Assembly: GCA_021204175.1 (NCBI GenBank)
Contig: JAJPZT010000076.1
Span: 1-37,661, forward strand
DNA length: 37,661 nucleotides
Direction of reading: 5' to 3'
DNA from: Clostridiales bacterium
GTDB taxonomy: Bacteria; Bacillota; Clostridia; Lachnospirales; CAG-274
Every line of letters starts with the position of its first letter. Position 1 is the stretch's first letter. This document shows, in pieces, positions 28,809-28,991 of this stretch. A program made the translations under genes and the position numbers. The notes under the pieces are model-generated. The model was not told the origin of the DNA and ran no database searches. It was given only the letters and a program-made list of their open reading frames with translations.

Positions 28809-28991
28809 GTAGAATTTTGATATAAGTTTAAGAGTGAACAATTCGTGTTTGCAAGGGCGCAGGCAGGCGTTGTTAAAACCTAAAGGCTGATTTGTATAAC
28901 CACGCCTGTTAGGCTATAACGCACGCCTTTTTGTTTTCTGATTTTTAAACCTATATCAAAGATAATAAAAAATATTTTGGAGGAAAGTTTT
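28809..28991 (+). promoter_or_regulatory. Long structured leader of gdhA with competing hairpins (candidate attenuator or riboswitch)
   Basis: About 180 bases lie between the predicted transcript start and gdhA. A long hairpin can form: AGGCGT (28865-28870) with ACGCCT (28923-28928), GTTA (28872-28875) with TAAC (28917-28920), CCTAA (28879-28883) with TTAGG (28909-28913), AGGC (28884-28887) with GCCT (28904-28907), followed by TTTTTGTTTT. CAGGCGT (28864-28870) can instead pair perfectly with ACGCCTG (28902-28908), which would break the terminator stem. GAACA (28836-28840) with TGTTT may form a further upstream hairpin. I recognise no known riboswitch or T-box core here. Confidence 0.6.
28865..28938 (+). 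terminator. Terminator-like hairpin in the gdhA leader
   Basis: A stem of about 19 pairs with small internal loops ends at ACGCCTTTTTGTTTT, 60 bases before the gdhA start. If it stops transcription it makes a short leader RNA of about 125 bases. Confidence 0.6.

Follow-up and report, generated by a model that had tools for sequence, protein, structure and literature searches.

A gdhA leader in a Clostridiales bacterium as a probable attenuator controlled by an ANTAR-domain protein

The window analyzed here, a whole stretch of 37,661 nucleotides, carries gdhA behind a full-consensus promoter and a leader that contains an intrinsic terminator. Transcription is expected to begin near 28809, as judged from the promoter. 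The features of the locus, all on the plus strand, are as follows.

28774 to 28802, plus strand: sigma-70 promoter TTGACA-17-TATAAT, matching the consensus at 12/12 positions
28837 to 28874, plus strand: possible antiterminator, an outer helix (28837-28842/28869-28874) extending the hairpin, proposed from its being the minimum free energy fold at most growing-chain lengths
28847 to 28864, plus strand: ANTAR-type recognition hairpin GTTTGC[AAGGGC]GCAGGC, assigned by the loop rule of PMC3369931 and by compensating changes in relatives
28864 to 28908, plus strand: alternative hairpin of the initial annotation, arms 28864-28875/28897-28908, an inverted repeat
28865 to 28928, plus strand: intrinsic terminator stem with 5' arm 28865-28875, 3' arm 28917-28928 and an inner hairpin (minimum free energy fold, pair probabilities of ~0.88)
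28928 to 28937, plus strand: T-tract of the terminator, TTTTTGTTTT, from the sequence
28979 to 28987, plus strand: Shine-Dalgarno region, GGAGGAAAG, from the sequence
28992 to 30323, plus strand: gdhA, NADP-specific glutamate dehydrogenase, 443 amino acids (NCBIfam NF006929)

The gdhA product matched NF006929 at 772.6 bits (cut-off, 536). An initial annotation had described a perfect promoter ahead of a leader of about 180 nt with no known RNA core. The full consensus match bears out the promoter, and a search of the leader against the Rfam 15 covariance models, riboswitch and T-box families included, returned no family over threshold. The leader RNA (28809-28991) folded with a minimum free energy of -46.6 kcal/mol (z = -2.8), a value equaled by 1 of 200 shuffles. 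The label Oscillospiraceae given to the relatives in the same annotation is doubtful because many of the named neighbors, which are rumen and gut Clostridia, are labeled Lachnospiraceae.

The initial annotation had also noticed that CAGGCGT has two mutually exclusive partners, the second followed by a T-run, and we confirmed this arrangement. CAGGCGT (28864-28870) pairs with ACGCCTG (28902-28908) or, inside a longer stem, with ACGCCT (28923-28928). The inverted repeat joining 28864-28875 to 28897-28908 spans 12 nt and is 92% complementary, and folding in isolation gave -12.6 kcal/mol for the first-copy hairpin and -22.9 kcal/mol for the terminator. As a candidate for a conserved switch, the pair was rejected. 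In our leader comparison, the very close species L003 keeps the first-copy pairing, a second such species (L004) has it in damaged form (ATGCCTA), and the more distant congeners L005 to L007 lack it; conservation of the leader therefore does not lie in this pairing.

A small hairpin (28847-28864) immediately precedes the terminator; the initial annotation had not described it, and it is the best-conserved element of the gdhA leader. Its loop of six bases, AAGGGC (28853-28858), carries A1 and G4 and is closed by a C-G pair, and its stem of 6 bp grows to 7 bp with the pair 28846-28865. Ramesh et al. 2012 (PMC3369931) define the targets of ANTAR proteins by just such a form, a short stem of 3 bp or more topped by a hexaloop that has these two bases. 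The same work defines a dual-hexaloop element, in which a second hairpin follows after a short linker and the terminator overlaps a recognition hairpin (PMC3369931). The gdhA leader falls outside this dual class because the window leader holds no second hexaloop with A or G at position 1, G4 and a stem of at least 3 bp within 45 nt. It instead has the single-hexaloop minimal motif, one G4 hexaloop on a short stem, a term that appeared in the literature searched only in Walshe et al. 2022 (PMC8934654).

Within the genus and a sister genus, the hairpin keeps a distance of 112-153 nt from gdhA, and its arms carry compensating changes (GTTTGC/GCAAAC, GTTTGC/GCAGAC, CATACC/GGTATG, CTTTGC/GCAGAG and GGCTTC/GAGGCT). 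The rest of the leader, apart from the terminator, is unconserved even within the genus. The search for covariation in relatives that the initial annotation had proposed thus came out in favor of the hexaloop hairpin and against the mutually exclusive pair, which is damaged or absent in L004 to L007. That this pair alone acts as a constitutive partial terminator, with the upstream hairpin incidental, is hardly credible: both pairings of 28864-28870 do exist, but the hairpin covaries and is the best-conserved element, and the pair itself is broken or missing in those four relatives.

These results also bear on the suggestion in the initial annotation that the leader may be an unnamed RNA switch responding to a metabolite. 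A riboswitch for glutamine, glutamate or 2-oxoglutarate, with its aptamer between promoter and terminator, would fit the attenuator anatomy at a nitrogen gene and the two alternative pairings. We consider it very improbable in view of the empty Rfam search, the poor conservation of the leader around the hairpin and terminator, the small size of the hairpin (18 nt with a loop of six), below that of a known aptamer, and a loop rule that is the one followed by ANTAR targets. The metabolite-ligand proposal gives way to a conserved, covarying element that is an ANTAR-signature hexaloop hairpin in a genome whose ANTAR gene adjoins glnA.

We then counted such hairpins across gdhA leaders. Hairpins of the form C[AANGNN]G with a stem of at least 4 bp occurred in 31 of 116 distinct leaders, compared with 1.45 +- 1.2 in dinucleotide shuffles (maximum, 5); about 70% of leaders lack one under this strict rule, despite the ANTAR gene being nearly universal. 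When loops were sorted by positions 1 and 4 into 16 classes, A/G was found in 33 leaders and the next class in 10. Two further comparisons do not select on the stem. The sequence CAANGNNG was flanked by a stem of at least 4 bp in 31 of 73 places, compared with 10 of 124 for other bases at position 4. The arms of G4 hairpins were 60.6% complementary over five pairs, which fell to 39.6 +- 2.4% once arms were exchanged between sequences, and the non-G4 control gave 40.0% and 38.7% when swapped. Covariation of the arms was confined to loops with G4. For 16 chosen hairpins, a pair count gave 94.7% paired (57.6% when shuffled) with 34 two-sided changes as opposed to 11, a count that leans toward structure because these sequences were picked as hairpins. 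Of the 50 hexaloop hairpins in leaders of gdhA and amtB, the majority stand without another A1/G4 hexaloop close by; L008 has one.

Hairpins were found in 1 of 18 leaders from genomes in which no ANTAR gene was found and in 30 of 98 others (Fisher p = 0.039), a weak test because ANTAR presence tracks relatedness. With the gene nearly universal, we set aside ANTAR presence or absence as a line of support.

The genome encodes exactly one ANTAR protein (PF03861; 53.5 bits, cut-off 27.3), a protein of 178 amino acids with a receiver-like N-terminal part and an ANTAR domain, and its gene lies directly downstream of glnA. The adjacency recurs across relatives in the family, and in G018, G025 and G032 gdhA, glnA and the ANTAR gene are neighbors. 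The nearest solved structures are those of EutV (6WSH/6WW6, E = 1.9e-5), followed by NasR and AmiR. A Pfam search of the protein returned the ANTAR domain only and no receiver domain in the N-terminal part, and the aspartate-bearing segment of the canonical relative L034 is missing from that part, so that phosphorylation of the protein appears unlikely. In AmiR, too, the ANTAR domain follows a receiver-like part that apparently cannot accept phosphate, and control of this pseudo-receiver by its partner AmiC provides a precedent for phosphorylation-independent control. In contrast to AmiR, we identified no AmiC-like partner here, and the ANTAR gene is linked to glnA. Because of this linkage, glutamine synthetase or glutamine could be guessed to report nitrogen status to the ANTAR protein. 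The gene for NitR of Clostridium saccharobutylicum, an ANTAR-type antiterminator involved in nitrogen control, also adjoins glnA; its likeness to our protein consists of the glnA linkage and nitrogen control, is drawn from its description rather than from sequence comparison, and serves as a lead only.

The residues with which EutV contacts RNA include K149, E160, Y164, R168, M172 and N173, and G4 of the loop is contacted (PMC8934654). In our alignment, K149, E160, M172 and N173 are kept in the ANTAR protein; Y164 is changed to H, R168 to Q and R142 to E, and K143 and K147 are also altered. These partial changes, along with the presence of the motif in L103, a genome in which no ANTAR gene was found, would suit recognition of the hairpin by some other RNA-binding protein. 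We regard this as improbable given the A1/G4 loop rule, the linkage of glnA to the ANTAR gene and a target set of glnA, amtB and gdhA that fits published ANTAR targets. In L103, the hairpin TGCGC[AATGGG]GCGTA stands 268 nt ahead of the gdhA match; possible reasons are an incomplete assembly or a role of the element at another start.

Leaders of glnA and amtB in the same genome and in relatives carry related elements. The genome's own amtB leader (L256) contains CATCTTTGTC[AAAGAC]GGCAGGTG with a terminator, the same hairpin-plus-terminator design as in the gdhA leader. Its own glnA leader begins with CAACAAGGACG at a strong terminator and has the invariant CAAGGACG, but on a stem of only 2 bp; CAAGGACG is invariant in glnA leaders of the genus, though the stem amounts to one or two pairs. 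More complete hairpins occur in glnA leaders of relatives (GAAAC[AAGGGC]GTTTC and GGGC[AAGGGT]GTTC), and the design is repeated in relatives' amtB leaders, of which L232 and L248 carry two C[AANGNN]G hairpins. Most likely, the same kind of switch precedes glnA and amtB, usually pared down to one recognition hairpin rather than two. The terminator, the conserved leader hairpin and the design shared with glnA and amtB thus speak for attenuation at a nitrogen control point, as the initial annotation had proposed. Two tandem arrangements were also observed: L256 holds tandem attenuators, the first with a GATGAG loop (G1/G4) closed by ATCC/GGGT at the foot of its terminator, and in L232 each hairpin is followed by its own T-run. 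A genome-wide pattern, CAAGG..CCTTT, was discarded as a search tool: it found glnA and one amtB leader along with many matches that lie elsewhere or look fortuitous, and a reversed control matched as well.

We examined how the hairpin and the terminator could relate during transcription. In this genus the hairpin abuts rather than overlaps the terminator; in the window the two share only base 28865, and because of this one-base overlap their mutual exclusion is not obvious. In a crude scan, sequence shared with the terminator, and hence exclusion of it, was found for 21 of 50 hexaloop hairpins. In growing-chain folding of the gdhA leader, the extended hairpin (28837-28874) was the predicted fold at most lengths from 28880 to 28921, occupying the 5' arm of the terminator until the second copy was made; at 28925 the fold differed. 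Judged as a statistically supported antiterminator, this outer extension did no better than shuffles.

Considering these analyses together, we propose, at a probability of roughly four in five, that the gdhA leader attenuates transcription and is recognized by the ANTAR-domain antiterminator protein, as part of a nitrogen regulon of glnA, amtB and gdhA. By default, the nascent RNA would fold the terminator (28865-28928) and transcription would halt at the T-tract. Activation of the single ANTAR protein, presumably when nitrogen is limiting, would let it bind the hexaloop hairpin and prevent the terminator, and gdhA would be expressed together with glnA and amtB. Prevention would most likely occur through stabilization of the extended stem (28837-28874), which would sequester the 5' arm of the terminator. 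Alternatively, the first-copy hairpin of the initial annotation may serve as the antiterminator, or the bound protein may hinder the terminator directly.

The proposed attenuator resembles the targets of EutV (Enterococcus faecalis eut), NasR (nasF) and AmiR (amiE) in its stem, its A1/G4 hexaloop and its downstream intrinsic terminator, as well as in preceding a nitrogen-metabolism gene in a genome with an ANTAR gene. It differs in that those targets are dual, with the second hairpin overlapping the terminator, whereas the gdhA leader has one hexaloop that abuts it; the loop consensus here, C[AANGRN]G, is also narrower. Predicted ANTAR targets already published include glutamate and glutamine genes as well as ammonium-transport genes (PMC3369931). 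One hexaloop is the unit bound by an ANTAR dimer, and single-hexaloop sites are expected to exist, the extent of their use being left open (Walshe et al. 2022, PMC8934654). The same study holds that antitermination needs both hexaloops and expects single sites in settings free of the time constraint that a moving polymerase imposes (PMC8934654); in contrast, the single hexaloops described here sit at transcription terminators. On our reading, what had looked like an unknown riboswitch becomes a testable protein-RNA regulon by which many uncultured gut Clostridia would control how they take up and assimilate ammonium. Its leaders offer many natural cases in which ANTAR attenuation with a single hexaloop could be sought, in a lineage suited to the question raised by the 2022 EutV structure paper. 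More tentatively, and at somewhat less than even odds, glnA, amtB and gdhA may form a widespread gut-clostridial regulon on single-hexaloop attenuators, served by a phosphorylation-independent, glnA-linked ANTAR protein that may receive its signal from glutamine synthetase itself; this would show that a single hexaloop suffices for antitermination in vivo.

Some further structures were observed. In the window, 16-nt arms at 28816-28831 and 28945-28960 (94% complementary) surround the whole attenuator and could pair only in read-through RNA, immediately upstream of the ribosome site. We did not retain this long-range closing helix as a candidate: 1 of 500 shuffles in the window reached it, and it is weaker in L007 and L212 and absent from other relatives. 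The gdhA leaders of a related genus (L016, L018, L019 and L021) share an apparent transcript start, ACAAGRRC, followed by a long hairpin, which in L019 and L021 encloses a terminator-like hairpin with T6, a layout unlike that of the window. Elsewhere in the window, a T-box leader (RF00230, 116.4 bits) occupies 4762-4995 on the minus strand, upstream of a minus-strand open reading frame at 3638-4663.
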